From assembly GCA_964036295.1 (NCBI GenBank), contig OZ038466.1:21566597-21630596 (forward strand): 64,000 bases of DNA, read 5' to 3'. The stretch comes from Plumapathes pennacea. Its lineage: Eukaryota > Cnidaria > Anthozoa > Antipatharia > Myriopathidae. This document shows positions 472 through 57,729 of this stretch, piece by piece. Position 1 is the stretch's first letter. Each line of letters begins with the position of its first letter. The position numbers and the translations under genes were made by a program. The notes under the pieces were generated by a model. It had not been told where the DNA came from and did no database searches. It saw only the letters and a program-made list of their open reading frames with translations.

Positions 472-776
472 CTTCGTTCTGTGATTCTCCTTATAATAGT
501 AGAACTTCATTCCATCCACACTGTATGAGACAGTGTACCGTTTGACCCACTGATTCGAGTCTTGGCGGCCTTGGGAAGCGACGCCCTTCACTCTCATGGG
601 CTCCACAAAGTTCATCTGCAGCCACTGTCGGTTGTTCCTGTGCCGGACGCTCCATGACCAGCGGTGATTAAGTCGGCCATGCCAAGGAGCCAGGTTATGG
701 TTATAGTAAGTGGTGGCTGACATCAGTCCATTTCGAAGACGCTTATCCTCCAGTCCGAGTGGCATTGCACAGCGAT
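472..776 (-). CDS. F5/8C domain 26, first exon only (octad 4, class a)
   Basis: A 305-nt exon, the exact class a length, with APWHGRLNHRWSWS and RCAMPLG. The core is ASQGRQDSNQWV (Ala-Ser instead of Ala-Thr). The exon ends in phase 0 before gtataa. Its second exon must lie left of base 1. Class a at this position predicts that a fourth octad continues outside the window. Confidence 0.9.
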
Positions 777-2244
777 CTGTTTACATACAGAATACCTTCA
801 CAATTATCGAAAGAAAAACGACTTTTCGCTTATTCGGAATGTTACGCTGAATTGGAAAGTTCGACCATTAGCTTTCTTTCTGCAATGTTTGTTTCTTTTT
901 ATTATTACTGTTATTATTTTTTTTATTATTATTATTTTATTATTATTATTTTTTTAATTTTTTAATTTTTTTTCATTTTTTTCAAAATATGGAAATGCTC
1001 AGACAAACAGCTTTTGTACAACATCTTGGGAACTAGAGCGAGTTTTCCGGTCAAACTTCAGCAACTGAAATTAAATGAAGGAAAAATGATTTTGGGCTTT
1101 GCAGTTCAACTTTAATTTCAAAGCCAACGAATGTACGAATCATCATTACAGCACTCATCTAACTCCGATCAACATAAGACACAGTGCATACTTACAGTAC
1201 TACATATAGAGGATATTACACGGCGGCGCGAAGATATAAATTTTATTTTCGAGTGGTAAAAACAATATTTTACGAACGAGCGCTTCGCGAGTGAGTAAAA
1301 TATTGTTTTTACCACGAGAAAATAAAACCCATATCTTCAAGCCGCCGTGTAATTTTCTTTTTATTATATTAGGCACGAGTGTTTTACGAGAAATTGCACA
1401 AACAACCGTGCAAAAGCGGGAAATGATGCCAACGATATCCTCACTAGTGCCACTCGGGTCCCGGATGTAGTTTCGTATGGATTTTACGCACGGTATATTT
1501 TCCAGTAAAACACTCGTGTCTATATAATAAAAACTGACATTTAACTCAGCTCTATAACACCACTTTGGTAACTTCAATAAAGCAATTTACAAAATAGAAG
1601 TGATCTTGATAATATAGTGGACCCTGTAGAACAAATTAGCGAAAAAAGATAAACTTCACGATAAAATTGTATTATTTTTTAAGTTCAGTACTAGCAATGG
1701 CAAATGGACAAAGCAAGAAACCTACCTTCAGCACAGCCGTAAAACTCCGTCCTCATGGAAATGTGTGAGTACCAACTCCACGGGTGTATGCGGATGTAAC
1801 GAGCCCTTATTGGCGGATAAAATCCATTTTGTTTGACGCTGTTCTGGTCTTTGTTGCCTTGGAAGTACTGTAAGAACACGATAGAATAAGTTATACAGAC
1901 AACTCCCTTTCAGCGGACACCCCTCTAAGACCGACACCCGGTAGGAGTGGTCCCAGTCGTTTCTTGTCATTCACTCAACAGAACTCTCTTTAAGACAGAC
2001 ACCTCTCTTAAACGGACAGTTGGAGCCGGACCCGAGGGTGTTCGCCTCAGACAGAGTTCACTGTAGACAACTGGACTAAATTGTACGCGGTGTATATACT
2101 GTATAAATGCTTTGTAAACGAATGAAGAATTGTGATGAACAGTGAGTATCTACTAAGTTTGGTTTGTTCTTGTTTTGCTAACTCAGCTCTGTCTGCCTGT
2201 CTGTCTCATTCTTCTCTCTGTTCTTACTCAATCACTCATACACG

Positions 2245-2304
<60 letters not shown>

Positions 2305-5300
2305 TTCTCCTTCTATCTACAGACAATATACAGCAACTCTAATTCCATGAACGCAATTTGATCCCCGAGCTCTGCGAGGGTAATAATCGAGACGCTAAAG
2401 GGTATCTCGCTTTTTTGTGACGCTAAAGACAAGAATCTTGGATCCCGAAAACACACCTACAGAGCGAGGAGATATCTGCGATTATCGTATTTCTAGTATT
2501 ACCTTTCTGTTGCTGTTGATCTTGTATTCAGCAAAATGTGCCCCGTCCTGACTGAATGTCACATAGTATTGTCTCACCCATTGACGGGCCTCTTGTCGTC
2601 CTTGGGTGGCGATTTTGGTTACCCGGGTTGGCCGACCAAAGTCCACCTGCAGCCATTGATGACGAGTGTTGTGACGCGCAGACCAGGCCCCAGTCCTCCC
2701 ACGGGCTTTTCGCCAGTGCAGCCTGGCGTTGGAAGGTCCATGGTGTTTGTTCCAACTGGACGAAGCTGAGATCTGGTTGGCACGAAGGCGACCATTTTGC
2801 ATGCCCAAAGGTCTATTGCAACGGGGTCCTGTCGATATTTGAAAGAAAAACACTTTAGGTTTGAGAATTTCCGATCTTAGTTGTGCCAGAGTGGTTAATG
2901 TTTGTTGAAGCAGTGGCATGGGAAAAAGGTATGAAAATGGACACAAATAACTCACCAACGATGCATCCGTAGAACTCCACTCTCATGGAAATCCAGCTTC
3001 GCCACGTGACAGGATGGATCCTGAAGTAACGCCCTGTCACAGATCGGGCAAAGCGTTGCGTGACAATCATGTATCTGTCGTAATTACCTCGGAAAACCTG
3101 TAAACAAGTGACAAAAAAGAAAAACGTGACTGCTGCGACGTAAGCTGACCAAGGAAACAACCCTTCACTCTGTCTATCAACTTTGATCGTGACAGTGGCC
3201 GGCTAGATTTGATCTCTGGCGGCAATTGACCCTTTAAGTTAGTGTGTCACATGACCTGAAATAGGACAACACACCAACATGCGTCTCTAAGTAACAGTAA
3301 AATATCACGGTGTTACCAGATTTTTCACTATCAATCAGATAGTTCGCCCAGAAATACCCGAATGAGTGAGCAAACGTCTGGAAAATAACTTGTCATTTCT
3401 ATTTTGAGATCCTATTTTAGCGTGTTGTCTCATTTCGGGTCACGTGACACACTAACTGAAAGGATCAATTGCGTATGATTGTGAAAGTGGTTTACCACCA
3501 TTCTGCTAACCTTGGTTCTGCCCTTTTCTCTGTACGTTATATATCTCCGTCCCTTCTTGCTGTAAGATACGTAGTAACTCTTGACCCATTGATCGGAATT
3601 CTGTCGACCCTGAGTTGCAATCCTCGTCACTCGAGTCAAACCTCCAAAGTCCACCTGCAGCCACTGAGCTCTGTCGCGTCTCTTTGAGCACCAGGCCCCT
3701 CCGTTTCTGCCCGCGCGGCGCTGGTTGAGTCGCGCGTTCCACGGACCACAGTAGTAGTTGTAGTAAGACGACGCGCGGATTACAGGGTTGGGCAGGCGTC
3801 TATCTTCCAGGCCCAAAGGCATATCACACTTGTCTAGAAATAACGTTGTTCAGAATATTGTTTTAACACATCAGATGCCTACAATGACGAAGAGGGACAG
3901 TCACAGACAAACAAACAGACTAAAGAAGAAACACTTTTCTTACTCCAAACACATCCATACAACTCCACTCGCATCGAGATATGTGACTTCCATCCTCTTG
4001 GTCGAATACGCACGTATCGACCATACAGCGGCGTCTCAAACGAGTGAGTCCTCAGCGACCTCCTGTCCACGTTGGCTGGGAAGGTCTGGTACGAGAAATG
4101 TGTCAATAAGACTTTTGGGCCGCGTTTATTCTAGAATACGACTACCTACAACAGCTCAGACAATTGCTTGTTTTGGGAAATGTTTTACAAACCAAAACAT
4201 TTTATTGAATTCTTTCCCTTTTTTACAGCTAAAGTATAATTTCTTTTCTGTTTTGTTTTGTCAACATTTTTTCAAACACAGCTACACTACCAACAATATA
4301 ACAACAGTTTCTCCCAAGAACCCGGGTTTCCATTACTTACCTTCACGCTGTTCCACCAAGTTTTTACACGTGAGAAATGCAATCCATCAGAACTGAACTC
4401 CACCCAGTAAGTGGTGACCCACTGGTTCGCGTCCTGTCTTCCCTGGGTCGCTATTCCAGTGATCTTCATGGTCCGTCCAAGGTCCACCTGCAGCCACTGG
4501 TTGTGGTTGTTGTGACGCGCACTCCATGCGCCCATATACCGTCCGTGTCTCGCGCGGTGAAGACGCCCGAGGAACGGAGCGTGGAAATTGTTGTAGTAAG
4601 AAGACGCTGTCATGGCCTTGTTTCTGATGGTACCTCGCTGAATTCCCACAGGTATATTGCAGAAGTTTTCTAGAATTTTGAGAAATTACGTCGTTTACAA
4701 TGTTCGTTTTAATAATCAGTGAGAATTTATCAATATGAGCCGGGTTGTTCCGGTCTAAGATCTGTGTTAACCGGGAGCCCGGCTTTCCTAGCTTGCCCAG
4801 TTTTTATGTTATCGCGCACCTGATTTTTGATGTTTTTTTCTGCTCACATAACAGGCCCTAAACATGCAAAACAGCCTTATGGCCGGTGGCCGAGAAACAG
4901 CAACAAAGAAGTATACATCAATAAATCCTGAAGTGTACGACTCTGAAAGCGAGTACTGCTTAGGTGGTCAAAAAGTCAGACACCAACAACAGTCTCACCC
5001 GCTCTTTCAAACTTTACAAGTTCCAAATTCGTCTCTCGAACTTAAACTTGATGTTTCAGCATCTTTAAAGTCGTTTTGCGTACGTTAAATACACTTTGCT
5101 CTATTTGTCCAGTTCGTATATCTACTAAAATGCAACGTACACTAATCAAATATGACTCATAAATGACAAAAAATGGGATTAGGCAAAGTGTGTTTCAGAA
5201 TCAAAACGTACCACGCATACGGCAACCGTACAACTCCACTCTCATAGCGATGTAGCTCCTCCAGGAACGGGGAGAGATTCGAATGAACCTGGCCTTGATT

Positions 5301-8300
5301 GCTGGCAAAATCTTGTGTGCTGATGTTGTGTAAATGTCAAAGTTGCCGCGGAAAATCTGGAGAAGATACCAGAAAATTAGTCGTGACTAGTGGGACAGTT
5401 TTCAGACAGGATGTAATGTATACATATATTGCCACAGTACAACGTTCGTTTAACGCATTTAAACGCGTAATGACAGACAGGATGTGATGTTGCTTTGGCC
5501 ATCTTTTAGAAGTACAGTAACTTGATCGACTATACAGAAAGGCTCCGCCCGAAAGGAGTCCCAAGCCTCTGGGACAGAAAAACCAAGTTTTTTGATATTT
5601 GAAAGGATCGGTACGAAGGCTGGCCAAAGGAAAACTCGTATTGGCATTAGGTTTTAAAACTCGTCTCTCGATTGAGAAGTTTGCAAAAGTCACGCTAACA
5701 AGCGATTTGCGTGCGGTTTTTGTGGACGTTTCCTGTTCAAAGTCATAAAAAAGGTGCATCTATTTTACTAGAAGACTGGTAGAATATCTGGCCAGTCTAT
5801 CTCGGCCAACAAATACGCACGAGTGTGAAAGTGGCCTCTTGAGAATAAAAAAACATATATACCTTCAGCCTTCCAAAGGCCAAGTAGTGCTTAAAGCGGT
5901 AGCCAAAGCGACTGTAGGACAGCATGTAGCTAGTCACCCACTGATGCGCCTCCCTTCGTCCCTGGGTGGCGATACCTTTGACGACACTCATTCCACCTAA
6001 GTCGATCTGCAGCCACTGTTTGGTGTTACGCAGACGAGCGACCCAGGCTCCGGTTCTGCCGTGACCTGCGTAGATGTTGAGTCTCGCTCGGTCGGGTCCG
6101 TGCTTGTAGTTGTAGGAGGAGGAAGCACGGAGGGAGCCGGACAAGATCCTGCCGTCCTCCATACCCAGCGGCATAGTGCAACGATCTGGCGAAAGGAATG
6201 AACCCAGTAAGATTTTAGTTTTCCACCTTAGTTTTTTCTTCCACCAAAACGTGATTATAACAAACCTATCAAGCAACCGTAGAACTCGAGTCTCATGGAG
6301 ATGTGACTGCGCCAGCCCCACGGGCGGATGCGAATGAAGCGTCCTCTGATGGCGGGAAAGAACGCATACGACACCACGGTGTTTCTATCACGGTTTCCAG
6401 TGAAGTACTACAAGTATCGAGATGGGATAACCGTTAGACACATCAAATATCAAGTTCCTGGCCCCAACGTCTACGAAAAACGCACCCCAATTGCAAATAG
6501 GCCATTCTAACTTAGACTATTAGTTTTATTTTGTTTGTTTTTTGTTTGTTTGTTTGTTTTGTTTTGTTTTTTGTTTTTTTGTTTTTTTTTTTCATAAAAG
6601 GATCATTTTCATCTAAATCAACCTCATTTTCGCATCTCGTTTCGTTTTTAAAAAGAGGCAACAGGCATCTCGGAAATGGCCTACTACGATTGGTTGTGAT
6701 TACAAGGAATAGAGATGAACCACTCCACAATAATCTATCTTACTTGAAATTACAGTGGAAAGCTAGTACTTGGGAGAAACTGCGTTACCGTGGAGAAAGG
6801 CGTTTGATGAATTGGCTAAAGGTCGATGTGTAAAAGCTGGACGCCATTAAGAACTTTGAGCTGACGTTTTGAGTGTCAAAGCAAGTAAGAAATTTGAAAT
6901 AATACCTTCAAGTTGTTTCTTTCCTTGTACTGAACATAATGGATTCCATCCAAACTGTGTAACACAAAGTACTGTGTCACCCACTGGTCCGCGTCTTGTC
7001 GTCCCTGGGTCGAGATCCTAATGATTTTCGCCGCTCGACCAAAATCAACCTGTAGCCACTGGTAACGATTGTTGTACCCAGCAGACCACGCGCCCATGTA
7101 GCGACCACGCCTCTTTCTGTGAAGCCGCGCGAGGTATGGGCCGTGGTAGTTGTCCCACCTGGACGAGGAAGTGACGTAGTGGTTCTTGATTCGTCCGGCC
7201 TGCATTCCCATTGGCCTGTTGCACATTTTGCCTGGAGTGCACAAAAAGTATCAACATTGCTCCAAAGAGAGAATCTTCACAAAGGTTCACCGAAGTTCAG
7301 CACACTGGTGCAACAACATATCATGAACTTACACATGATTGAGGAGCTTTTATATTAAGCACTTCTTGAACTAAAATTATACAAGCAGTGAATTCGTGTA
7401 GAAATGATACAAATGTTCATGACTGATAATGATAATAAACATTATGACGATAAACTGACGATCATGACGATGTTCGTGATAAACGAGTTGCAAAATTTCA
7501 CGTGAAAACACGCACAAACCTGCAAACGAAAAAGGGGAATTTACCAATATCGGAAAGTGGCACAAACGATGACTATAAGAAAGATTCCTCCAAAGAGATG
7601 GCCTGCATAGCGGCTCTCCCAGGGAAGGGGAGGAGAAACGAGGTCACTATAACAAATAACTAAACTGCTCATAACAAACTTACCCAGCCTGCAACCATAC
7701 AGCTCGACTCTCATTGCAATATGGCCGTACCATGAGATGGGGTGAACACGAACATAGCGAGCTTTAAACGAAGGTCGGAATCGGTTCGTTACCACATAAT
7801 ATCGCTCACTGTTGCCCTGGAATATCTATAGAAAGCATGGAATGAAAGTACACGAGTATGAGTATTTATGTCCGTCTGCCCGTCCATCTGTCGTCTGTGT
7901 ATCGTCTCCTTATTAAATATCACGTCTTTCCCTGTCTTGAAAAGCAAAGCTCAGAAACGACAAAAAAAAGCACAACAGCAGACTCTGATTCCGTGTTTAA
8001 AGTGAGACAAAAAATTACTGACGACCTAAACAATCTTAAGAAATATTTTAAAAATATTTTAAAATCATTAAAAATATTTTAAAATTATTAAAAATATTTT
8101 AAAAATGTTTTTCCTAAGCAAAGAAGGGAAGAAAAATGACAAGAAATACGGGAAAATAGTCAAACAGCATGATGCGTCTTTTAAATCAGGGATATGAATT
8201 GTCTGGACCCGACATCACGAGATGATAGGACGAGGACTCGCACTGTACCTTCACTAAGCGTCCTTCCTTGACAGGATAAAACTTCGCTCCGTTGTGACTG

Positions 8301-11300
8301 TAAGACACCGTGTATCTCTTGACCCACTGATTCGCGTCGTACCGACCCTGGGTCGCAATTCTCTTCACTCGAGCAGCCGTTCCCAAGTCAATCTGAAGCC
8401 ACTGCTTTCGGTTGTTGTACCGAGCAAGCCAACCACCTCGCGTGGAGCCGTGGTTCCGCGCCTGAAGTCTGGCGCACCACGGACCGTAGTAATGGTTGTA
8501 CATGGAGGATGCAGTGAACATTGACTTTGTAACACGGCCGTCTTGCATACCGAGTGGGGCATCACATGGATCTAGAGACACGCAAGGGGAAATCAGAGTT
8601 CCAAACATGAGAGCGCTCTTGCGCGAATTAAAATGCTCTTTCTTGACAAGCATTATTAAATGATGCAAATTGGTAAAGAGTCGCAGAAAGGAAGAACTGT
8701 CAATCTTCCCTTATAACTATAGAGTCGTTTTCGGATGACTGTCGAAAGTAATCGTGTGATTATTTTGGTTTTGGGTTTGCTGCCCTTCTTATTGGTCCTA
8801 ACATGTTTGACAGCACTCTCAACCAATCAGAAGCAAAAGTCAGTTTTGTGTAGCAACATAACTTACCAGCCCGGCAGCCGTAGAATTCTATCCTCATGCA
8901 AATATGTCGATACCAGCCCCTGGGACGAATGCGGATGAACCGAGCAATAATCGGAGGGTTGATGGCATTACTGACCACACTTTGCTGATCCCTATTAGCT
9001 TGGAAATACTAAGGAAAAATAAAGAAAAGAAATGTGAACAAGATCCATCCGTGATTTTGCCAAAATGCAAATACATATTATTGATGCCCAACCAATCCCA
9101 TGGCATGATGCAAAGACAATTCGGCCATGTTAGGTAATTTTACAATGGAGCTAACTAAATAAATAGTCTAACATGGCTGCCATGACGTCACAATAAATTT
9201 GTAGGACAAACTGTAAACCACTGATTACAAAGAAACTGCAAACCATAAACGTGGAAATTCAAATCGGCATAACCCTTGCTGAATCGGCCCTAACAAGGCA
9301 AGTGGCGTAATCACTCAAAATGCCTTTACCTTGTCGCTGTTCTTGTATCTGTATACCGACCAGTGAACACTATCGAAACTAGAGGACACTGTGTATCTTG
9401 TCACCCATTGGTTGGTGTCCTGTCGGCCTTGAGTGGCAATTTGCGTGATTTTCATTGGTCGACCAAAATCCACCTTGTACCACTGGTTGTGGTTGTTGTG
9501 TTTTGCGCACCAGGCCCCCTTGTACGCGCCGCGTTTGACCCGGTGTAGTCTTCCCAGCCACGCAGCATGCGCGGAGTTCACCTCAGACGAAGCAACGATC
9601 TTGTTGTTTCTGATCCGACCATTCTGCATACCCATCGCTCGGTTGCAAGGAGATGCTACGAAGAAAAACTCGCGTGTTAACACACAATTGCGGTTTCTTG
9701 AGAAACACATGTATAGCGTTAAATGCATGGTGTGTCGGGTCATAGATCGAATGTAATATGGCTGCCTTGGGGGAAAGAGATCGTTTGTACCAAGTTAAAG
9801 GATATCCTAAAATCGGTAAAGTCCTCCAGGTTGGGCGTTTGAATATTTTACATTTCAAAGTTGTGGCTATTTCAAAAATTGAAATTTGTGTGAAAAGACC
9901 AATTGCATTTTCATTGTTTTCAAGTACCAGTAATAATTGATACTAAACAACGTGACGGGCGAAAAACCTCTTTTCCTCAGGCAAACGCATAACATACCAA
10001 TACCAATTCTTAGTCGACAAAATCCGTCTCTGCGCAAAATAAGACCAGCTTTTACAGGGTCTAATCGCTAACAACGTCAAAATTTTCTTCTTACTACCCA
10101 GAGCAGGAGCATTAATAGTATGGTAAGGAGAACCTACAACAGTTGATCAAACTATGAATTCTCTTTTTGTCACTCTTACTATCTTTTGATGATTGGTGGG
10201 GAGAATTTGTATTTCAAGTCTCAAAAGTAAAGGGTTATAACAGAGTGAACACGTGCATTGACCTAACAGCTCGAAAATATACTTCCTCGATTAACAAAAT
10301 ATAGGTAAATCTGGTTATGTTACACAATGGACATGTCTGTTTATCCTGAAGACACTAACAAACTTACGTGTGCAGCCGTATAACTCTACCCTCATGGAGA
10401 CCCAGCTGTACCATAACTTGGGGTAGAATCGCACATACACTGTCGTGAAAGGGCGCAAAAATTGGTGGTACACCACAGAATTCCTGTCGGTGTTTCCTGT
10501 GAACATCTACAACAACAAAAAAACCAAGGTCCCTCAAGTCAAACATAAACGCGCAACTTACTGTAACTTGCCATACATTTAATAAAACTTAGGGTGCATT
10601 CTTTGATGACTATTCTGAAATGAAAATAGCGGTATACTTGGAATATTAGCCATTAGTATATACCACACAAGTGAATAGTGATTTTCGCGCGCTCTGACTG
10701 GCTCCTCAATCTCGGAATATCAAGTACTATTCACCTCCCGGCGGCTTTCGGTAAAACAAAATGGCGCGCAAACCCAGTTTTTGCCCACTTTTGTCGGAAA
10801 TAAAATAGCTATTTGGGAGTTGGCTATTAAACTTGTGTGGTATACACTAAAACAATTATCTATTCCTTTTAGTCTCATTCCGGACTATTCCCAACAGAAT
10901 GCACCTTATTTTCTTATAATTCCTACGCGTCTTACCCTAATCCTGCGCCTCTCTCTGTACGCATGGAACTTCATCCCTCCGATGCTGTACGTGATGACGT
11001 AGCGCTTGACCCACTGATTGGCGTCTTGTCGTCCTTGAGTTCCCACGCCTTTTACCTTCGTTAATTCGCCAAAGTTCACCTGAAGCCACTGACCGTGAAT
11101 CCTGCGCCGCGAGCTCCATGACCAGCGGTGATTGAGCCGGCCGTGCCAGGGCGCCAGATAGTGGTTGTAGTAGGTTGAGGATGATAGCTGGCCATTGTGA
11201 ACTCGCTTGTCCTCAACACCAAGGGGCATGACACAACGATCTGCAAAGTTAAAAATTTTTAAATCAAATTATTTGGCAATCAAAGGCTCCTGTGAGCCAA

Positions 11301-14300
11301 CTCGTTAATGCGAAACGCTCACGACTAGATCTCAATCAATCAATCAATGCAATCGCATTCACGAGTTAAAAGTGAAACCAGGCAAGTTAACACTGCTTTA
11401 TTCACCTTCAGCGCAACCATAGAACTCGGTTCTCATAGAGATGTGTCCGTACCAGCTCCACGGGTGAATGCGGAGGTAACGGGCTTTGATTGGCGGGTAA
11501 ATACGATGGCCAACAATAGAGTTCTGGTCTTTGTTGCCACTGTAATACTGCAATGTAATATGTATATAGCTTCGTTGTAAAGGATGGAACAGGAAGGGGA
11601 GACAAGGGTAAGGTCATAATCAGAGACGCGAGCAAGAAAAAGATTAAGGGAGGAAAAGAAGGAGAAAGAAAAGCAGGAGGAGGAAGGGGGTGAGATGGAA
11701 GAGATTGAGCAGCAGAAGAAGACGAAGATGAAGGAAAAGGAGGAGAAACATGTGGAGCAGGAAAAATGGAAAATACGTCAAGAAAAAATGACGAAGAATA
11801 AAAATACCTTTCTGTTGCTGTTCACTTTATATTCAGCAAAATGCGCACCATCCTGACTTGAAGACAAGTAATACTGCCTAACCCATTGCCGGGCGTCCTG
11901 TCGTCCTTGAGTGGCAATCTTCGTTACCCGGGTCGGTCGTCCAAAGTCCACCTGCAGCCACTGGTAACGGCTGTTTTTGCGTGACGACCAGGCCCCAGTC
12001 CTCACACCGGCTCTCCGCCAGTGAAGCCTGGCATTGTTTGGTCCGTGGTGTCGATTCCAGCTAGAGGAGGCCATCAATTGGTTGGATCTTATACGTTTAT
12101 TGCGCATGCCTAATGGCTTGTTACACCGAGCACCTGAGGTGACAAAAAGAGAAAAGAAAAACGTTTGACGTCACACAAAAATATATACAGCTGTCAATAA
12201 CCAAAACACATTCTGTCACTAAGGGTTTAAAATTCTTAAAGTCTTAAATTTGACTTATAGAAGTATTGTCAATCTTGATGGGAACACTGTTCTAATACGT
12301 CCTCGTCACCGGATATTTCATAGTACGCACACTATCTGATATTCTTTATATTTTAATTTCAAATACACGTGAGACAAACCTGTTACAATTCCATAGAACT
12401 CCACTCTCAAGCAAATCCAACTTCGCCACGTGACAGGGTAAATTCTGAAGTAACGTCCAACAGCTGGTTTTTTGAACTTGTGCGTCACAGTCACAAATCT
12501 GTCAAAGTTGCCGCGGAATATCTTTGGACATAAAAAGAAAAAATACAATCAGCAAGACACAAAAAAGTCTTCAAAATATGCAGCAAGCGCTTTCCTTCCG
12601 TGATTCTAGACAAAGAGTAACAGTGGCTGACGGGTAGGTGATTTTGGTAACACAACGCAATGGGTATGCGACATTGTTTTAGCCAAGCGAGTATTCTTTA
12701 AAAGACCAAAAACACATGTAACACCAGGAATTTTTTATGCCAACTAGCAACAAAATGCCACTAAAAACAATCTTCCACTTTTAGCAACGTTGCGTGCATG
12801 TGCCAAAGAAAGATGCAAGCGTCTGACACCGCACATCAACTCGCGATGGTTTAATGTCCTCAGCGTTGCGTTGAGAGCACGGAAAATTGCATCGTTTAAC
12901 AGGGCCTTCTTAAATTTTAATACCTCGCACAAGTAGAGAATGAATCCCACTTTACCTTGGTTCGCTTGTGTTCCGTGTACGGGACAAATTTGTGTCCGTC
13001 CCTACTGTATGACAGATAGTAGCTAGTGACCCATTGGTGAGCATTCTGTCGGCCCTGAGTAGCAAATCTGCGGACGGTTGTGAGCGCTCCAAAGTCCACT
13101 TGAAGCCACTGAGCGCGGTTGTTTCGTTTGGCGCACCAGGCCGCCCCGTTTCTGCCCGCTCGATGTTGATTGAGTCGAGCGTTTCGCGGGGCAAGGTAAT
13201 AGTTGTAGTAAGACGACGCTTTAAGCTCTTGATTGATAATACGCCCGTCTTCTACGCCAAGTGGCATGTCATGACGATCTGAAACAAGGAAGCGTCACAT
13301 AATCTTAGTTAGGAATATTTTAGAGTTTATTTTCAATCAGTCTTGCTCACAAAATGAAGACAGGCTTGCATCAACTTAAATGAAACGCCTACATCAAGTG
13401 TCGGCAGTTTAACATAGAGAATGCAATATATATGATTCAATCTTCTACAAGAGAAGAGAGAAGAGATATTAAGACAAAATCTTACTCCAGTTGCATCCAT
13501 ATAGCTCCAATCGCATGGAGATGCGGGACCGCCATCCTCTCGGTTGAATTCGCACGTATCGTGCATAGATAGGGGGGTCAAACGAATGTGTATTCACAGA
13601 CCTGGCATCCACGTTGGCGCGGAATGTCTGCAACAAACAAATAAAAGTGACTCGGTATATTTAAATAGATTTTTGGGAAAAACGATTGTTTTCTAAGAAA
13701 CTGCGAACTTCCCCTTAGAATTCCCAAGAGCAAAGACAAACAGATTTCGTAGAACATTGAAAAGATTTTGTTAAAAATACACTACTACCATAGCATTCTT
13801 GTTTGGTGTAAATCATTTCCAGGAACAGTTGCAACAGTTGCAACATTTCTAGGAATTCAACTTGTACTCTTAAGACTCGATTTCTATAGCAGCCGGGTGC
13901 ATCTTTTGGCCAGGATACGAGCTTATTTACCTTGACAGCACTCCACCAATATTTCACAATTGCGAAGTTGGATCCATCTGAGCTGTAGCGAACCCAATAA
14001 GCGGTGACCCACTGGTTCGCGTCCTGCCTTCCCTGGGTCGCTATTCCAGTGATCTTCATGGTCCGTCCAAGGTCCACCTGCAGCCACTGGTTGTGGTTGT
14101 TGTGACGCGCGCACCACGCACCCACGTAGCGTCCGCGTTTCGTGCGATGAAGACGGCCGAGGAACGCAGCATGAAACCTGTTGTAAGAGGACGAGGCTCG
14201 CATGGCCCCGTTTCTGATTCGTCCTCTCTGGATCCCCACAGCTCGATTACAGAAGTTTTCTGCGCCACAGAAAAACAGTGTTAGCCAGATATTCGACAAA

Positions 14301-23300: not shown

Positions 23301-26300
23301 TGAAGTAACGGCCCGTCAAATATCTTTTGAATTTGTGAGAGATGACTACGTATCGATCATAGTTTCCTCGGAAAATCTGCAAGAGAGATCACAAAGAATG
23401 AGAAAGAATTTCCTTGAGCCAAGGAAGAAAGGACTTCACTTGCAGAAACCGTTTGGGTAACAGCAATACACTGCTCAATGATTGTGGTGAAAGATTAAGA
23501 TGAAAAGGCATTTTCTTGTTAACCTCAAAGCAGGAATATGGAGCATGCTATAGAAAACGAAATATCTGATCGCTTCCATAGCTAGAAGTTCTCTTTCAAT
23601 TGCCCATAATTCTTCAAGGCAACAAAGAATAACAATTCGAATGCTTTTTTTCCCAGGATTTACGACAATGGATTCATGTTAGACGGGTCGAAATCCCCCC
23701 AGAAACGTACCCAAACAAAAAATGCTCAGGTAAGATATTGCGCCTTAACATTAGTCTTATCCTCAAAGATAATTTGAAAATAGGTATTCCCGCTCCAAAG
23801 GACAACAACTAAAACATCCTCAGGAACTATTCACGAACATTACCTTTGTTCGCCTTCGTTCTTTGTACGTCACAAAAGCCAGTCGATTCTTGCTGTACGA
23901 AACATAGTAACTCGTGACCCATTGGTCCGAATTTTGTCGGCCCTGAGTTGCGATCTTCGAGACTCGAGTCAGCGCTCCGAAGTCCACCTGCAGCCACTGA
24001 GCTTTGTCGCGTCTCTTTGCGCACCAGGCCCCTCCGTTTCTGCCCGCGCGGCGCTGGTTGAGACGTGCGTTCCACGGACCACAGTAGTAGTTGTAGTAAG
24101 ACGACGCCCTCATGAATCCGTTCGCTAGACTATGATCTTCAAGGCCCAATGGCAAATTCTTTTGCTCTAAAAAATGTTTAAAAGTGTCAGCATACGTTTT
24201 TCGACCTTGAACTTTGAACTTCATCTGTATATTATTCTGAGGTAGAGAATGGAATCCTAACCACACTTGCAAAGTTTTCGTAAAAGCAATATGACGTTGC
24301 CCTTTCCTATAAAGGTTTCTATTATTCAACCTAAAGTTTCCACATACGATTGCATGAAAAGGAAAATGACTTGATAAACGTTTGTCTAAACATACTAAGT
24401 AGACTATATTTAGATATACCCTTACTTATGACAGGGGTTATAAATTCTAATTTTCCATTCGCTGGCTGCACTATTTTCAACTTCGAAACGGCCAAATACT
24501 TACTCCAAACAACGCCGTAAAGTTCCATCCTCATGGAGATATGTCCGTGCCATCCTCTGATCCAAATCCTCACGAACCGAGCAAGGAAAGCGGGACTGAA
24601 GGAATGGGTACGAATGGTGCGTCGGTCAAAGTTCGCTTGGAAGGTCTGTAAAGAGGAAGTAACGCTACTTTAGCGACTCTCAACATCCTGAAGTCGACGC
24701 TAACCTTTTTCTTTGACACAGGACATTGTCTTAATTTCAAAATGGCTTCTTTTGAGTCCACCAGTCAACACGTGACGTCAAAATCAAGATGGCGGCGGGA
24801 ACCGTGAAAAGGGCTATATTAAGAGATATATTGATTGATATACCTTGATTGCGCCCCACCACGTCTTGTAACGTATGAAATGAATGCCGTCCATACCATA
24901 CAGAACCCAGTAACGAGTGACCCACTGGTTCGTGTCCTGTCTTCCCTGGGTCGCTATTCCAGAAATCTTCATTGATCGTCCAAAATCCACCTGCAGCCAC
25001 TGGTTGTAGTTGTTGTGACGCGCGCACCACGCACCCACGTAGCGTCCGCGTTTCGGGCGGTGAAGGCGAGCGAGCCACGCGATGTGATACCGGTTATAAC
25101 TGGATGAAGCTTTAAAGGCGCTGTTTTTGATGCGTCCATTTTGGAAGCCGAGGGAATACACAACGTAACGAACTGCAAGCCGATAAAATAAGAAGAGAAA
25201 TAAGACTCTCAAAGTCATGAGATCCATACTCTAATCCACCAGCACTGAACAAAACTATGAATAATACTGGGGGAATCGATAGTCTGACCAGCTTGAACCC
25301 AAGCACGAGATCACCTAATTCTCCCAACCTGCTCTGAACAAAATGTATGAGTAGTGTTAGGAGAATTGATAGTTTGACCAGTTTGAGCCCAAACCAGAAA
25401 TCAGTATACTAAAGTAACAGATAACTTGGCTCCTCTCTTGGGTCCCAAGGGCCAAACTGGAGTCGAAAAAAACATCGCGTCTTATTTCCTAGAATTCAAA
25501 TTTACCTCCTCCGTAGTAGCAACCAAAAAGCTCGACGCGCATAGCGATATAACTTCTCCATGCGTAAGGATGAATTCGGATATATTTGGCACGGATGGGC
25601 GGCCTAAACTTGTGGGAAACAATGGAATATCTGTTGCGATTTCCATTGAAGAACTGAAAGAAAAACAAAACAGTCATATTAACCCAGATTTAAACCCGTT
25701 TAGTACGATTGAAATAATGCGACCGCGCAATGATGGAAGATAATAAAGCCTCTGATATTTGCGAGATGAATATACCTTTCCCGCTCAAGTCCATACTTAA
25801 AGTATTTTCGCATTAAAAATCATTTAACAGTGAAAATAACCAAGCCCGCTCTAATCCAACATGACCGACACCTTTCGATTATCAAACTACAAGGCGCGCA
25901 AGGACGTATGGGCCATTTATTCCTGAGTGCACGTTTTGGGTGCTGATTGGCTGTTTTAAAAAAACGCAAGCGACACCTGATCACGTGGACTTTGAATTGA
26001 CAAGTGAGAACTCGGTATCGCACTCTACCTTAAACCTTCCAAGCTCCTTGTAAGGGGAAAACCTGTATCCTAGCACACTGTAAGTGACCCTGTAACGAGT
26101 GACCCACTGACTGGAATCTTGCCGTCCTTGCGTCGCTATCTTCTTCACCCGAGCGAGCCAAGGCAGCGTAATCTGCAGCCACTGGTTGCGATTCCGATGG
26201 CGCGCGACCCAGGCCCCGACCCGACCATGACCGGCGACCAAATTCAGCCGAGCACGGTCTGGGCCATGGTTATAATTGTATGAAGAGGAAGAACGCAAAG

Positions 26301-29300
26301 CGCCGCTTTGTATTCGGCCGTCCTCAAGACCAAGCGGCATGCTGCAGTGATCTGTGAGGGGACAGCAACAAGAGTCAAAAATTGCACCAATGCTCCCTTA
26401 ATTGCCTAATACTGTCAAACATCTTATCGTTGAAAATCGATTCTACATCATTCAGTACTAGTTGACTAGTAGAATATTTCTTGCTCTGAATATTGTGCCT
26501 ATGAAATTACACAAAAAAACTTGGTGGCAGAGATATACACATATATGTTATATTTAAAACTTGTGCAAATGATTTTAACAAATATTAAGTCCGTAAACAG
26601 TCAATCGAAAGGCGAAAGAAATAAACACAAAGGTTTATATAAACTGACGAAAGATGGACGACGACGCTTACCCGCGAAACAGCCATAAAACTCCACCCGC
26701 ATGGAGACATGGGATCTCCAGCCCCAAGGATGGATTCGAATCATACGGCCTCGAATTGTCGGATGCAGACTGTGTGCCATCAGGGTGTTCCTGTTACGAT
26801 TGCCTTGGAAATACTGAAGGTGTAAAAAGGGGAAGTGGCTCAACGAAGAACAGCGGGAAGATATGATCATCATCATCATCATCATCATCATCATAATGGT
26901 GATGATGACGATGACGATGAAAATGGTATAGATGACAACGATGGCAATAATGATAAATATAAAGAAGGAAGGAAACGGAAATGAACAACGGAAGAAAAAA
27001 GACTACCACAAACAGAAAGAAAAGGGAGTAACCAAAATACCAAAAAATCTTGAAGCGATGATCAGTCCGGACTTGTTTGAAACAAGCAAACAAGAATACG
27101 AAGGTGAATTATAAGCAGAGATGCAGGAATTAGAAATCAGGAGAGGCAAAACTACCTTTCTTGTGTTTCGCTGCTTGTACTCAGCGAAACGTATACCATC
27201 CATACTATAGCTAACATAGTACTGCGTGACCCACTGGCTAGCATCTTGTCGACCCTGAGTGGCTATGCGGACAACCTTGGCAGGTCGTCCGAAATTAACC
27301 TGCAGCCACTGGTAACGATTGTTGGAGGCCGCTGACCATGCACCCATGTAGCGACCGCGCCTTCTTCCTTGAAGTCTTGCGAGGAATGGTCCGTGATAGA
27401 CATTCCACTGCGAGGAGGCAGTTATTCGAGCGTTGGGGATTCGCCTGTTTTGCATTCCCATGGCCTTGTTGCATAAGGCACCTGAAATAATACGATGGGA
27501 AATGTAGGTTTGTTGCTGTACTACGTGTGTGAAGCCATGGTTGATCAAACTTTTAGTCACGTGGTAAATCTCGGGTCACGTGACTAGCTGGAAGTCACAT
27601 GACCCGATATTCACTACGTTTCAGAAAACTGTGTTGTTGCTGTCTCTACCGGTCGCAAACAACTGCCACTGAAACAAACTAGTAACAGCGCAACACTCAG
27701 CTACACAAATACACACACGAGTGTAAACCCACAAATTCAAGACAAGAACGCACCCAATCTGCGTCCATATAATTCCATTCTCATGGAGATGTAGCCGTGC
27801 CACGTGACGGGATGGACCCGAACGTATCGAGCCTTGAACGGACGACGGAAGTGATGCGTGACAACGTAGTATCTTTCACTGTTGCCGGTGAAGACCTGTT
27901 AGAGAACAAAGAGCAAAACGTTGAACGATACTGTCTTGTCAAACTCAATAGGAGTACGGACTGAACATATAATCAGTGTGTGTCCTAAAATAGTTTAAGT
28001 TTGTGGGATACAGTCAACTCTCTAATAACGGACACCCCCCTAAGACGGACACTTGGTAGGAGTGGTCCTTGTCTTTTCTTCAGTCATTTACTCTAACTGA
28101 GCTCTCTTTAAGACGGACACTTGTCTAAAACGGACAGTTTGAGCTGGCCCCGAGGGTGTCCGTCTTTATAGAGGAAGTTGACCGTATTCCTGTTGTCTTG
28201 AGGTTCAAACACTCGCCAGAAATCTTCAAGAACATTTACCTGATCCTCCAATTAGAGACAAAATCTTTCGAACCAAGCAGCACGGAGAACATGGCTTTTG
28301 ATACCTTCCTTAGGTGAAAGCTATCAGTTCTCGCTAAATCACTCACACATTTTCTTCTAAAAGGCTGAGAGAATCTGCATTTTGAACTTTGAAGTGAAAT
28401 GGGTAAGGCAATGTATGGGCAATATATATACCATACATACCCTGAATCTCCTCCCTTCTCTGTACGGAATGAATCTAAGTCCGTTGGTACTGTACGTTAC
28501 GGTATAAGTCTTCACCCACTGCGCCGCGTCATAGCGGCCCTGCGTGGCGATTCCCTTGAGGCGAGTCAGTGTCTGCAGATCAACCTGTATCCATTGGAGT
28601 CGGTTTCTCTGACGCGCAACCCACGCACCGCGTGTTACACCATGATTGCGTGCTTGCAACCTGGCGCTCCACGGACCGTAATACGTGTTCCACATGGAGG
28701 AAGCTTTCAGGTTGCTTTTCGTGATTCGGCCGTCCTGCATTCCCAAGGGCATGTACCACAGTTCTGTGGAAACGGCAGAATACAATCAAAGATGTTTTAA
28801 GCGGACACCCTGTATTAAGTGGACACTTAACAATTCCCAAAGGAAGTCCGCTTAATACGGTTTTACTGTACTTTCTTTTTCTTTTCCTTTTCTTACATAC
28901 TTTGTTAAGCCATTACTCAAGATTACAACGGAAAACCTTTTAAGTCGGCATCTGACATAAAGACCATACAAACAGACGAAAGCTCTGAATTAAAATCTTA
29001 TTTGTTGAATCTCGCGTATATCACTTCTTGTGTAAGACTTGCATTTCTTAGATATAGAAAGAATGCTTTACTTTGAGGGCAGCCGTAGAACTCCACTCTC
29101 ATACAGATGTGACTTCTCCACCCGCGTGGTCTGATTTTAATAAATCTTCCCAGGATCGGCGGATTCAACGCCTGGTTCACGACGCTATCCCTGTCTCTGC
29201 TGCCGGTAAACATCTGCCAACAAAACAACATTCCCTTAGTCTTCGGAAGCCTATCTTTGTCTGAATGAAATCCACGTTGCGTATGACTGAAATCTTCATT

Positions 29301-32300
29301 TACTCTATAATTATATAATAATCCCGGCAAGAAACACTGCACATTTGGTCTGCTTTGGTATGATAGTGAAGCATAGAATCTGCAGGCTTTGCAGAATTTG
29401 CCGTAAATACTTTGTAGGCGAACCTTACAAAAGCTGACCCTTCTACAGAGCATGAGGTATCATAAGTCTGGTCCGGGTTTGCGACTCATTGGTCACGCAA
29501 TGCAGAGTAAAAGTCTTGCCACCTGTTCTTACCCGTGACCTACGACTCCTGACCCCTTACCTCGTGACCTGTGACCCCTGTCCAGACCTGTGACATATGA
29601 CAATTGACCCACGACCCCACCAGGTCAGCTAATTGTAAAATTGTGTTTAAAAAAAACATCACCCACCTTATCATTACTCTTGTACCTGTAGATGGCCCAA
29701 TGAACGCCGTCTACACTGGAGTACACGTTGTATCTCGTCACCCACTGCTGCGTATTAGACCTCCCCTGAAGGGCAATCCCTGTCACTTTAGTCAATCGAC
29801 CAAAGTCCACTTTCAGCCACTGGTTGTGGTTGTTCACCCTCGCACACCACGCGTACGGTCGGTTGAGCCTTGCACGATACGTGCTCAGTCCGCGGTTGTA
29901 CGAGGAAGACGCGGTGATCTTGTTGTTTCTAATCCTTCCATTCTGCATCCCGAGGGCTCGGTTACACAGTGCGGCTGAAGAACACCAAACAAGCAACGCG
30001 AATCAAACGAGCTTCCAATCACCGACTTCATACCATTCAAATATTATAATAGAGTTTTGGAAACAAGGACCAAGAGTTTAAGTACATTCACGCTGATAAC
30101 TTCACGAGTGTTTACGTAACAAGTTTCACCTCTCAAGTAATGAAATTTTTCGCGAGTGAGTCCGTAGCGCTCATACCCAGGATTCCACGGGAGCGCGCGG
30201 GTTGCAGTCCCTCAGAAGACAATCAACCACAGCCACTCAGAGGGTATTACCAGGCAAATAGCAATGTAATCTATCAAAACGGAACGATTTGCTATCTTAT
30301 GAAAACACGCAGTCGCTTTGCGCAACTTAATTTGGCGATCAACACAAGAACTCGCGGAAAGGTCGCGATCCAAGCTCGGCAACAACTGAATGATTTTACA
30401 AACCTGTAGGGCATCCATAAACTTCCACTCGCATTGACATCCAACCATACCACGCACGAGGAAAAATTCGTAAAGATACGGCAACAAACGGGTATCTGAT
30501 GTTGTGATACACGATTCCTTTGCGGTTATTGTTGGCAGAAAAGTACTGAAAAAAAAAAAACAAAAAAACAAGATGTTGATTATTTGATTGGTTATTTGCG
30601 TAGAAACGCTACACAGAGAAGCCCGGGAGCTTCGCTTCTATGTTTCTGATGATCCCATCTCTGGCACTCCAAAAGCCTGAGGCAATGTATAACATTAACG
30701 TGGTTAATTTTGGCTCATGTGACCTATTAACCCTTTCGCTCTCAGAAGTGATCAGCTTCAAATTTCTCTTTCAGTTTCTCACGAGAAATATACCATACAG
30801 TAAGGAGAACTTTGCTTTTGATATCTTGCTCAAATTACAGCCTACTGAACTATCAATTCTCACTACATCACTCATACATTTTCCTCTTAAAAGGTTGGGT
30901 TAATCTGCATGTTGATCTTGGGAGTGAAAGGGATAAGAAACAGTTAATATCTTACCTTGACGCGTCTGCGTTCAACGTATGTGTAAAACTTCATGTTATT
31001 GACACTGCGTGAAAGTGTATATTTCTTGACCCACTGCCGGGAGTCCTGTCGTCCTTGGGTGGCAATTCCCTTGACACGAGAGCTTCCTCCAAAATTTACC
31101 TGAAGCCACTGTCCCTGCCTGTTGTACCTAGTGCTCCACGACCAGCGGTGGTTCAGCCGGCCGTGCCAAGGTGCCAAGTATTGATTGTAGTAAGATGACG
31201 CTGACATTGCGCCAGGGCGAATTCTCTTGTCTTCTACACCAAGAGGCACTTTGCATCGATCTGCAGAAAAAAAAAGATGCAAGTATTTGAAATGTCCGTT
31301 TGATTATCCTCATGCTTTAAATCTGCATTTTTCTGTTTACTTTGTTTAGTTGTCTGTCTGTCTATTTGTCCGTCTGTGCCTATATCTCTCTGTATATGTC
31401 TATTTCTTTGTTCATGTCTATTTCTCTGTATATATCTTGGTGTCTGTCTATTTCTTGCTGTCTGTTGTCGTCGGTCTGTCTATTTCTGCGTATTTTTCTT
31501 TGTCTGTGTTAGTATCAAATGAAGGGCTAACCTTAAAACATCAGTCTAAACTCACAAACACGCAAACTCACATCAGCCTTGCGTTGATGCGTTCGTTATG
31601 TCTCTCTATGTCTCTGTCTATTTTTAAGTCTGTCTAGGTTTGTTCACGCCTGTCGCCATGTCCCTTGCTACACTGTATTCTAGTCAGAGTATTCTCCAAA
31701 ACAGAAACACCATCCCCAGACCTACGTGACTCTGCCTGCTTTATCGTGTCATGATTATTACTATATACACAAGGCCGTATCTCTAACGAACGTTGTCGAA
31801 GTGACGGCGTCATTTCTTACCAAGAGGACAGCCATAGAACTCCACCCTCATTGAGATGTGTCTGTACCAAGTGTACGGCAAAATTCGGATGTAACGCGTA
31901 CGGATGGTCGTGGTAAGCTGGTGCCTTTTAATTGTGTTCCTGTCCTTGTTTCCCATGTAGTACTAAAAATAAGAACAAATAAATATAAATACTAAGATTA
32001 ACCATAATTTAGGTCACTACCATTTTGGCATGCTCTCCTAACCCTTCCTTCCTCAGAGTATCGGGTGACAGTAAAAGTGACCCTCGCAGTTATGAAGCAA
32101 CTTAAGCAGTTGCAAAGACAGCCCAGGAAAATACCCTTTTTTTTTTTTTGCAAGTCCTTAAGTTGCTTCATAACTGGGTCACTTTCACTATCATTCTATG
32201 TTCCGAAGTTCACATATATGTGAATAATCATGTATATCATATCATGAGTATTCAGTGCTCGACATTAAGGTTTTAGGTTGGTTGCCCTTCAGACTGTAGA

Positions 32301-35300
32301 TTGACTTCAAGCAATAGAAAGTTTCATAATTTCTAGTTGCCCGGCCCAGAATTTACCTGCCCGACCAAAAGTTTTGGTTGCCCCGGGCAAGCGGGCAACC
32401 GTTAATGTCGAGCGCTGAGCATTGAATGTAGCTTGGCTACGACTTGAGGTTTTAGTGTTGCACGAACTTTACGAAAATTGCCCTGAATTCGTCATTTCCA
32501 CAGTTTTGCGCAATGGTCGCTGACTCGTAAATAAGGTGATCGCACTTGCGCAGAGCCCTCTGAATATGGCCTTCATACCTTCACTCGATCTTTTTCCATA
32601 GACAGAGCCCACACAAACCCATCTTGACTGTAGGACACTTTGTACTTGGTAACCCACTGATTGGTGTCCTGTCGGCCCTGCGTAGCAATGCCCGTCACTT
32701 TCACCGACCTCCTAAAGTCAATCTGAAGCCACTGGTACCGATTGTTGTGTCGTGAGGCCCAGGACCCCACGTAACGTCCTCTTCGCGTCCAGTGCAGCCG
32801 AGCGAGGAATGGGCTGTGGTTGTTGTCCCAGCGAGACGAGGATGAAATGGCGCTGTTTGGGATTCGTCTGTTCTGCATTCCCATTGGAGCACTACACTGT
32901 CCTGAGAAAACGGAAAAGCGTAGGAATTGAAGATATCTTATTGTCACCTCCTTATGAAAGTTCTCTTTCTTTTCTTGTTTGCTTTAATAAAACGTAAGCT
33001 TTAAAGATGAGAACGACAAAAGGAGAACCTGAAACAGAGAAACAGACACAGACACAACAGATACGCAAACATACAGACACAGACACAAAGCCAGGGACAA
33101 AGAAAATGAAACAGAAGCAGAAGAGACACAGTAACAGACACACAGAGACAGATACAAATACAGAGATAGTTACATGCACAGACGAGCGCACGCACATAGA
33201 CAAATATACAAAAAGTTCTACGAGACAAAAACATACACAAACCACAGAAACAAATAAGACAAACACAATACAGAAACAGTTACATACAAAGACAAGCGCA
33301 TGCAGATACACAAATAAACAAAAAGTTCTACGAGACAAAAACATACACAAACCACAGAAACAAATAAGACAAACACAATACAGAAACAGTTCCAGACAAA
33401 GACAAAGACAAACAACACAGATACAGACACAAACACAGAAACACAGAAACAGTTACATACAGACACACAAAAACAGACAAATAACGTGCACCCTTACTTA
33501 TACATCGAATGTTTCCTCGCAGATCATCGAAGTTGATATGACCCCATCCTCCACTCCCGTAATCCACGAGTCGAACGAAGCCGATCCTTCCACGAAAATG
33601 GCGGACGTTCCACGACTTCCGCCTCATTCGCTCCTTACATCGCCCTTTGGCGCGCCGTACGACTCCTCGTCCTTCGATCACGAGCTCCGCGCGGTTGTAG
33701 TGAATGTTACAACCGCCGCCAATCAGAAAGTTAATATAACTGCCCGTGATCCTAAACTTTCTTGAGGTCAACGTTCCCACGGGGCGGTCGCCCTGTATTC
33801 CGCCTGCCCGACTCTGTGGTCTCGGGCGGTTTTCGTAGGTTCCGACCCACCATCGACCTTGCATACGAGCGCTTCCCGCGCGTCGCGCTTTTGAATTGTC
33901 GCCATAAGTTGGCTGGTTATTAAAGGCTGTGCCTGACTTGGACCATCCAAGCAGAGTTCCTCTCTCAAAGTCAAAGTTCGTGCATCCCGGAGGAGAACCT
34001 AAAACGACGGAAAACGGTGTTGACCCGAAGTTTAACAAAAATGAACCGACAATTTCCGCCAACATGCAGTTACGGCGACCTTTAAGACTCCGTAAGAAGA
34101 ACAAACTGACCATAAAAGGTAAAGAGTGACGTAACGGCTTGCTGAAAATAGCGGAGTCATGGGCTGGTGAAACCATGAACCGCTGCATTTCAACATTTGA
34201 AAAGCAACAGGAGAAAACATTAAAATTCCTAACTCACCTTGAGCAGCTGCCCAGTACCTGGAAAGCAAGAAAACAAGAAGTGTTAACTGATTGAGTGATA
34301 ACAGAATCCTAGCTTCTGGACGCGCAATAGGTTCTGGCACACCATATTACCTCAGAGCTAGCGTTTTAGCGCCCAGTTTATCATAGAGTGCACCAGATAT
34401 AATAATAATGATCGTTAATGAAAAAGCCAACTTCACCGACAAAGTGATTTACAGAGGGGTCCTCTGGGTATCGTGGAAATTGCGAGTAAACTTTGTTTTG
34501 ACAGTAAAGGTAACCCTCGCAGTTGTGAAGCAACTTAAGCACTTGCAAAAAATCCGGGCTTCAACGAGAATTGAACCCATCCGGCCTTTTCGACTAGGTA
34601 TATTTTAACTTCGGATCTAACATTACAAAGTTTTAAAACAGTTTTTGCAGGAAGTGTTACAACTATGTGGTAAAATCGACAGTTAAATTCGTCTTATAAG
34701 CAAGATATCAGACTTAACTGATCAAAAACGAGTCAAAGTTAACGCAAAACCAACGAAACCACAGTTTAATCCTCTCCTTTCGACGACCAAATTTCAAACT
34801 GCTTTGTTTTAGCTCCTTGATGAAAAGGACTTTGTTTGAACTCCGTCTAATTATAACTCCACTTTATTATTACTTGTTGTTCTTTTTCGCTGTTAATTGC
34901 GGCCGTGAATTGTCGCCCGACGCCATGTTCTATTTCTCGGAAGCCATTTTGTTTTATTTTGCTGTCCAATGGCGGCGCAGCTTATTCTGCCGTGACCAGC
35001 CCAGGTATACAAGCACCGGCACCATGACCGACAACTATAAATTAAATATTGCCAAATCTCAGGGCTCTTTAATTACGTTAACTAGATTAAAACATGCCAA
35101 ATAATAAGTGACAGACCCGCTGCAAGTCTGCTGCGTCGACTTTTGTCGAAAATTTGAAACACTAAAGCCTTCTTTTTACCCAGTCATGTTTCTATTTATA
35201 AAAGAACACACAAAGGAACACGATGAGACCCGCAAAACTTAAAAATAATAAGCGCAGTGTTTTGAAGTTTCAACCAATGAATGCTTGCTTAAAAACACCT

Positions 35301-57100: not shown

Positions 57101-57729
57101 ACAATGTTGTCACTAGTGTATTTTACAATCATTACTTCGTCTGTCAAAATAAAGAAACCATAAGTGATCTCACACATTAAACCTGCTAAACTTCGTAAAG
57201 AAAAAAAGACAGTTAAAGATCTGCTTCGACACGAAAAACCTTCAGTGACATTGAAATCCCATCAATAAGATCATACGCCCTTTGGTTTCCTTTAGGTCGT
57301 CCTTATCTAAGAAGTTGTTTACGTTGTGGGGCACCTGGTAAGCTTGTCTGACCACAGTAAGCCGCTTAAAAGGATCAATTAGCAAGCAAGTTGCAGATAT
57401 ATTTCTCGTCAGCAACCTTTATTTACACAGAAGTTTGGATTAGAAGGTACTAGACTAAAACGAGATACACCCTTCAGAAACACGGGGTTGAAAAGCGATA
57501 TCGGTTTATAGCTGTCTCTATTAGAGTTTTTCTAGCCTTTGCTACAAGTGACTCAGTTGTGTAGACAACCAAACAGCACAGATAAACAGGTGTTAAAGGA
57601 GCCCGCCAGCCTGTCAGTGTACAAACGGAAATGTTTAACCTCCCCTAAAGTGTGGAAGTAGCCAAGAAATAGTTCTGACACGCGAACAGTCGGCACCGTA
57701 TCACTGCACACCTGGTCAACTGCAACAAA
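54108..57729. other. Intergenic region between Rab3 and the TPMT-like gene
   Basis: It holds the promoters of the divergent Rab3 and TPMT-like genes at its ends. I see no conserved coding sequence in between. A minus-strand frame at 55996-56202 is not recognisable. A 13-A run occurs at 56763-56775. Confidence 0.5.

Follow-up and report, generated by a model that had tools for sequence, protein, structure and literature searches.

How a single locus can come to hold dozens of copies of one domain in a fixed, repeating succession is the question raised by a 64,000-nucleotide stretch of the Plumapathes pennacea genome (hereafter the window; C5:21566597-21630596), whose minus strand encodes a long row of F5/8C domains. 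A preliminary description of the window reported 26 such domains, in which eight distinguishable classes follow a solitary first domain and recur in fixed order three times, and concluded that eight domains, already distinct from one another, had been duplicated together as one block. We find that the order and the count of 26 are correct for the window, whereas the three rounds are an effect of its edge: the array continues 94 kb further to the left and comprises 83 domains (D1-D83), with eight full rounds (octads 1-8), a decayed ninth and an array of period four. We hold this architecture, and the history set out below, to be nearly certain.

The left flank was added because a class-A exon of the window matched sites far to the left of it in the assembly (290 Mb, 24 contigs). 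With 180 kb of flank included, both F5/8C exons were searched as profiles in six frames over 244 kb; minus-signed coordinates denote positions left of the window. This recovered 83 first and 83 second exons in strict pairs, all on the minus strand and 26 of the first exons within the window (469-32901), over a span from 32901 to -94363 (127 kb) that encodes approximately 12,750 amino acids, or 1.5 MDa, of domain sequence. Every domain is readable as a two-exon unit of phase 1-1. The splice sites were picked automatically to suit the expected phase, so that finding them adds no evidence of its own; the make-up of the donors is as expected, with G as fifth base in 72/83 second and 49/83 first exons. 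Two of the 83 spliced domains were scanned against PF00754 and scored 87.4 bits (D26) and 104 bits (D76) at a curated cut-off of 28.2, and many array exons are among the matches listed above cut-off in a scan of the genome. Cysteines near each domain end are present in 60 of 64 domains per column in D2-D65 and in 6/6 of D66-D71, and in 0/12 of D72-D83. Alignment with factor VIII leads us to predict that each domain folds as a beta-sandwich with three spike loops.

The fixed order of eight classes (A-H) is borne out by pairwise identity and by the tree. Within D2-D65, mean identity is 43.4, 44.0, 43.7 and 43.6% at lags of 1, 3, 5 and 7 domains, rises to 49.8, 51.3 and 50.0% at lags 2, 4 and 6, and reaches 72.6% at lag 8 and 71.1% at lag 16. 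The nearest neighbour by identity belongs to the domain's own class in 64/64 cases, compared with a maximum of 21 in 10,000 label shuffles. In a maximum-likelihood tree of all 83 domains, 14 labelled groups require 13 changes, which is the minimum, and A, B, C, E and G stand out as starred classes, every one of them a single side of a branch; domains of the same class lie closer together than neighbours within an octad do. The register runs unbroken from D2 to D65, including across a 17-kb gap between D56 and D57.

Beneath the eight-class order lies a simpler one. The tree contains a starred split of 41 from 42 domains (support 100/98) that is the alternation of two types, designated VED and QNG. 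With labels set by position and each domain then tested with itself left out, 83/83 domains follow the alternation by mean identity, and its sole break, between D71 and D72, falls at an insert with VWD- and EGF-like sequence. A period of four inside the octads was considered as a general rule and rejected, lag 4 standing barely above lags 2 and 6. Among class pairs, B and F are joined in the tree (100/94), D and H are the highest by identity, C and G are marginal, and A and E do not pair; because B+F is the only supported pair, we do not claim growth from two to four to eight. As a separate observation, D11 and D43 (class B) are 81.3% identical although four octads apart, against a mean of 73.4% for their octads, perhaps through gene conversion.

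The markers by which the classes were originally recognized hold with corrections. All are class-exclusive among the 83 domains: [AS]PWHGR[LI]NHRWSWS is found in 8/8 domains of class A, ARLQARNHG in 6/8 of class C and GPDRARLN in 7/8 of class E. The exact string APWHGRLNHRWSWS, however, which had been ascribed to all four class-A domains of the window, is present in D2, D18 and D26 only, D10 reading SPWHGRLNHRWSWS. The reported succession of first-exon lengths (305, 326, 323, 326, 323, 329, 323 and 326 nt) is found in octads 2, 4, 6 and 7; octads 1, 5 and 8 deviate at one or two places, and octad 3 conforms on condition of the donor chosen for D20, where the automatic pick gives 317 and the class-typical donor restores the pattern.

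Based on exon profiles, identity and the tree, the window is laid out as follows, all on the minus strand. D1 (31821-32901) is a solitary domain of QNG type, nearest class D. Octad 1 (22052-31260) holds D2 (31260-30404), D3 (29974-29072), D4 (28763-27754), D5 (27481-26672), D6 (26351-25506), D7 (25172-24504), D8 (24166-23235) and D9 (22993-22052), in the order A to H. Octad 2 (11406-21579) repeats the order in D10 (21579-20833), D11 (20429-19460), D12 (18918-17453), D13 (16938-16381), D14 (15692-14676), D15 (14259-13486), D16 (13278-12380) and D17 (12133-11406), as does octad 3 (1726-11240) in D18 (11240-10368), D19 (9655-8867), D20 (8571-7684), D21 (7231-6266), D22 (6185-5212), D23 (4669-3944), D24 (3833-2956) and D25 (2828-1726). 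D26 (1-776), of class A, opens octad 4, and its second exon crosses the left window edge; its intron contains a tandem repeat of two copies of a 164-bp unit at 95% (109-442). D26-D83 lie at C5:21472233-21567372, comprising octads 4-8 (to D65), the decayed octad 9 (D66-D71) and the period-4 array (D72-D83), after which comes a VWA exon (E 4e-32).

The left part of the array departs from the octad scheme by degrees. D66-D71 carry the register on, with D66 and D69 nearest their own class. Beyond D71, a first exon is able to open in phase 1 and a second has a VWD start motif and its own acceptor CAG; the stretch that follows contains an EGF-like match (EGF_Teneurin, 27.4 bits, cut-off 24.3). In D72-D83 identity is 57.5% at lag 4, 50.8% at lag 2 and 46-49% at odd lags. 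This third array (array III) was weighed as an ancestor of the octads and rejected, as its four classes group among themselves (IIIa+IIIc, 97/85) without pairing with any octad class. At the opposite end, a 501-nt exon of phase 1-1 upstream of D1 (33498-33998, minus strand) probably belongs to the array gene. It belongs to an Arg-rich domain family that gives 28 genomic matches, seven copies of which lie close together on contig C1 (21.87-21.88 Mb), and Pfam returns nothing for it at E up to 1. One weak signal-peptide candidate, which starts from an ATG at 38355 and has a phase-1 donor, was not accepted.

Age and mode of growth can be read from what the octads still share. Searches of octad against octad at the DNA level align 37-96% of coding bases and 0.1-5.4% of non-coding bases. 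At lag 8 the median synonymous distance (dS) is 1.97, with 23/56 pairs saturated, the median nonsynonymous distance (dN) is 0.187, and the median omega (dN/dS) is 0.146 over the 33/56 pairs with finite dS; by lag, median omega is 0.15-0.21. Because introns hardly align and dN/dS is approximately 0.15, the octads are old and the classes have been kept by purifying selection. A recent octad duplication is ruled out by the same introns, and the octads are therefore older than the earlier wording, that a block was duplicated, suggests. That eight domains which had already diverged were duplicated jointly, as one block, is itself upheld by the tree, the class-specific lengths, the eight-round register and an intronic element of class E in octads 3-6.

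This element, approximately 42 nt long, lies directly before exon 1 of D22 (6186-6227, minus strand) and emerged from comparison of intron flanks. It is common to D22, D30, D38 and D46 and not visible at D6, D14, D54 or D62; the 60-nt intron flanks of other classes have a mean likeness of 0.24-0.38 and a maximum of 0.48 for any pair (figures that carry no shuffle control). The element is a putative DNA witness of the common descent of octads 3-6; it may persist as a splice element or through late homogenisation. Identity between octads is 72-80% for pairs among octads 2-6, 56-67% for pairs with octad 1 and 56-61% for pairs with octad 8; octads 3 and 4 reach 80.0%, versus 55.7-66.5% for pairs that include octad 1 or 8. 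Over octads 2-7 identity drops with distance (Mantel r -0.69, p 0.003, all 720 orders). Because the central octads are most alike and octads 1 and 8 least, the array seems to have grown in the middle while its ends decayed.

A second F5/8C array in the same genome offers a parallel. Matches to PF00754 number at least 172 genome-wide, counted from 150 scored of 1,240 candidates. Within a 40-kb part of contig C2 (36.216-36.256 Mb), 29 paired domains (of 30 first exons) of two strictly alternating types make up an array at 36.221-36.254 Mb, with identities of 42.6% at lag 1 and 78.1% at lag 2; F5/8C matches extend to 36.315 Mb. An eight-domain block of 7.8 kb recurs there at 97.7% DNA identity with a shift of 8,775 bp, and so was copied recently; a pair of domains from this block turns up a further time, at a distance of ten domains, with 95-97% protein identity. 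In a tree of 46 domains (35/83 from C5 and 11/29 from C2), the C2 domains form one clade (99/99) and the QNG type of C5 another (97/92). Because the C2 clade holds both C2 types, alternation seems to have arisen independently at the two loci, with the qualification that homogenisation within a locus could mask a shared origin in such a tree. A common ancestral pair for both arrays was considered and is unsupported; in this reduced tree the VED type of C5 does not form one clade.

The composition of the C5 array is extreme. Isoelectric points (pI) average 10.4-11.1 by class and 11.4 in array III, with Arg at 12.7%, Lys at 4.7% and Asp+Glu at 4.8%. Among 12,753 amino acids and 742 Asn in the 83 domains, there is one N-X-S/T sequon, where 85.5 are expected from shuffling within domains and 34.3 from shuffling columns (minimum 22 in 500 runs); other X-x-S/T motifs deviate from expectation no more than about twofold. 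Secretory proteins have been described as subject to selection on their sequons (PMC5562741), and the scarcity of sequons here points to a protein passing through the endoplasmic reticulum under selection against N-glycans. Sequons are likewise lacking in the five C2-array domains checked.

Residues that tell the classes apart are enriched in one part of the domain. When columns were ranked by class information over 56 rows (octads 1-7), 12 of the top 30 fell in alignment columns 25-46 (22 of approximately 155; hypergeometric p 6e-5), a stretch delimited after the ranking had been seen. These columns align with the segment of the factor VIII C2 domain that holds spikes 1 and 2. The earlier suggestion that the eight classes bind eight ligands is thereby made plausible and no more. 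Classes B, C, F and G carry additional Cys, and disulfides between domains through these were considered and rejected. Because the columns concerned do not persist in every octad, the exon-1 Cys of class G (8/8 octads) being the sole exception among the four classes, no such pairing is claimed.

Taken together, these results lead us to favour, with a measure of confidence, the reading that the locus encodes a secreted, strongly basic hexacorallian scaffold or adhesive protein of approximately 1.5 MDa, grown by recursive block duplication. Pairs would have formed first and then larger even-numbered blocks, spread by unequal exchange, with new octads inserted in the middle. The product would pass through the secretory pathway without N-glycans, as the avoidance of sequons suggests, and display lectin-like domains of strongly basic character in a closely packed row. 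In an F5/8C domain the first Cys normally pairs with the last, and for this reason the domains of D1-D71 may hang like beads from a short chain with their class-specific spike loops outward. The octad would then act as one repeated binding unit, comparable to the titin super-repeat along the thick filament, its partner being polyanionic or periodic (a glycosaminoglycan, mucus, a matrix fibre or a surface). The predicted scaffold or adhesive role is tentative. More speculative still, and on present evidence unlikely, is that the octad serves as a molecular ruler or programmed ligand array of the extracellular matrix, convergent with titin: rigid pairs of unlike domains, which would have evolved at least twice in this genome, would be its building unit, the eight classes would read a periodic anionic partner, and the gene would still be growing from the middle by exchanging even-numbered blocks.

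Several observations count against this reading or parts of it. D67, D68, D70 and D71 are not nearest their own class, and the six domains of the ninth octad are not grouped in the tree (5 changes). Class F (98/48) and class H (60/50) are less firmly held together, and class D is one group only with D1 inside. A doubling from four to eight is visible for B-F and weakly for D-H only, E not being the closest partner of A. Some non-coding sequence does match from one octad to another, in a few short pieces (up to 210 bp at 74%, and 86 bp at 91%); the 86-bp stretch, shared by octads 4 and 5, has no match in the introns of D29/D37 or D21/D45. The VWD match is weak, at 13.2 bits for the exon alone and 17.2 with a hand-joined second piece (cut-off 22.9), the region upstream of D1 yielded no signal peptide that convinces, and there are gaps at D56-D57 (17 kb) and D71-D72 (5.9 kb). 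Finally, nectin of the sea urchin, the F5/8C adhesive available for comparison, is predicted to be negatively charged (PMC10057474).

Both gaps would be accounted for if the array were divided among two or three adjacent genes, such as D1-D56, D57-D71 and a VWD-EGF-D72-D83-VWA gene, and the period of four and missing terminal Cys pair of D72-D83 fit such a division, as does an ATG with a hydrophobic stretch ahead of the VWD-like motif. Yet the class register crosses the 17-kb gap from G to H, where screening turned up no exon that resembles a start and has a donor. A phase-1 opening is available to the exon that follows D71, and since the VWD-like exon has its own acceptor, a pyrimidine tract is the better reading of the hydrophobic stretch. 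We therefore consider separate genes improbable and a single gene likely. An expanded or misjoined repeat in the assembly, to which long tandem arrays are prone, is a far remoter prospect, given the regular order and orientation of the exons; reads of different octads are not easily confused, because their introns hardly align.

Two further alternatives concern function. The class order may be nothing but a fossil of block duplications, with selection keeping the domains folded and basic and the octad itself functionless. Unequal exchange alone yields periodic order, the C2 array copied an eight-domain block recently, and the last octads diverge while keeping their reading frame. Against this, class residues and lengths have been kept across saturated synonymous distances (median dS near 2), class-specific residues are enriched in the presumed binding loops, and alternation seemingly evolved twice; we rate a functionless octad as rather unlikely. 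F5/8C domains bind sugars and lipids, a property that, together with the enrichment of class-informative columns in spikes 1/2, would also suit a recognition protein in which eight lectin-like classes with eight specificities are repeated for avidity towards microbes, a symbiont or self. Omega is low at every lag (although as medians, not site by site), and all eight classes carry a high net charge, both of which speak against recognition; we think it unlikely.

The array's surroundings are of mixed content. To its right, within the window, lie on the plus strand a rhodopsin-family G protein-coupled receptor in a single open frame (38995-40038; 7tm_1, E 4e-27), an ankyrin-repeat protein (42146-42907; Ank_2, E 6e-20) and a member of the Thiopurine S-methyltransferase family in a single open frame (57679-58476; E 1e-37), and on the minus strand a Ras-family small GTPase in two open stretches (51722-54149). 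To the left of the array, from -100000 to -121000, both strands carry open frames that presumably represent pancreatic-lipase-type genes. In the 17,711-bp mitochondrial contig, analysed in two halves, ARAGORN finds tRNA-Met and one tRNA with anticodon UCA; a LAGLIDADG endonuclease lies inside the cox1 interval (E 2e-12), and nad5 is apparently split in two around nad1 and nad3, with names read from the frames. These traits are hexacorallian and most resemble those of sea anemones or zoanthids.

The super-repeat principle is known; what is unusual is the domain family, the size, the nesting and the parallel within the same genome. The statement that no protein of this layout had been described is not supported, since titin, in the super-repeats of its C-zone, and complement receptor 1, in its long homologous repeats, show a layout of the same kind with other domain families. 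Seven modules make up each long homologous repeat of complement receptor 1, and the nebulin super-repeat likewise has a period of seven modules. In the A-band C- and D-zones of titin, as in the array, blocks of diverged domains are repeated and a domain most resembles its counterparts at the corresponding place in other blocks, and the central super-repeats have been proposed to have emerged more recently (PMC10665226). Titin, however, is built of Ig/FnIII domains in a muscle filament, whereas the array employs one domain family, is probably secreted, has a period of two within eight and is joined by a second array of period four. Complement receptor 1, with 30 homologous CCP modules in long homologous repeats A-D (PMC5845983), shares an extracellular location and the super-repeat, and differs in its other domain, its far fewer domains and its being a membrane receptor. 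Nebulin also carries super-repeats along a giant protein (PMC7109182), in its case of short actin-binding modules.

Among the titles and opening lines of abstracts listed we found no F5/8C super-repeat protein, and a literature search for discoidin in such repeat layouts gave a single paper, which concerns titin and does not contain the word discoidin. The closest solved domains are those of the factor VIII light chain (whole-sequence E 3e-43 for D34, class A, and 9e-51 for D33, class H). Factor VIII C1/C2 and neuropilin b1/b2 are tandem pairs with two matched stretches each; unlike the array, these proteins have just two such domains, with other modules beside them. Sea urchin nectin, like the array, has tandem F5/8C domains (47-55% alike) and is a secreted adhesive, but it has six domains in 984 amino acids, a predicted negative charge and, in the portion of the source at hand, no super-repeat (PMC10057474), compared with 83 strongly basic domains here. 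The same source names VWD, EGF and F5/8C as recurrent in temporary adhesives (PMC10057474), and a study of the sea anemone matrisome mentions FA58C in Polydom (PMC12549020). Nearest at hand is the C2 array, which resembles that on C5 in its two alternating types and even-sized block duplications, and differs in its own clade, its pI of 6.1-8.4 (five domains) and its young blocks.

The array extends the super-repeat principle, familiar from giant muscle proteins and from complement receptors, to F5/8C domains, and its near-zero sequons and extreme basicity suggest a matrix material of an unusual sort. It also raises the question whether a periodic partner reads the order of the classes or that order is a relic. 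With arrays of period 2, 4 and 8 and of differing age in one genome, steps in the growth of giant proteins can be compared side by side.

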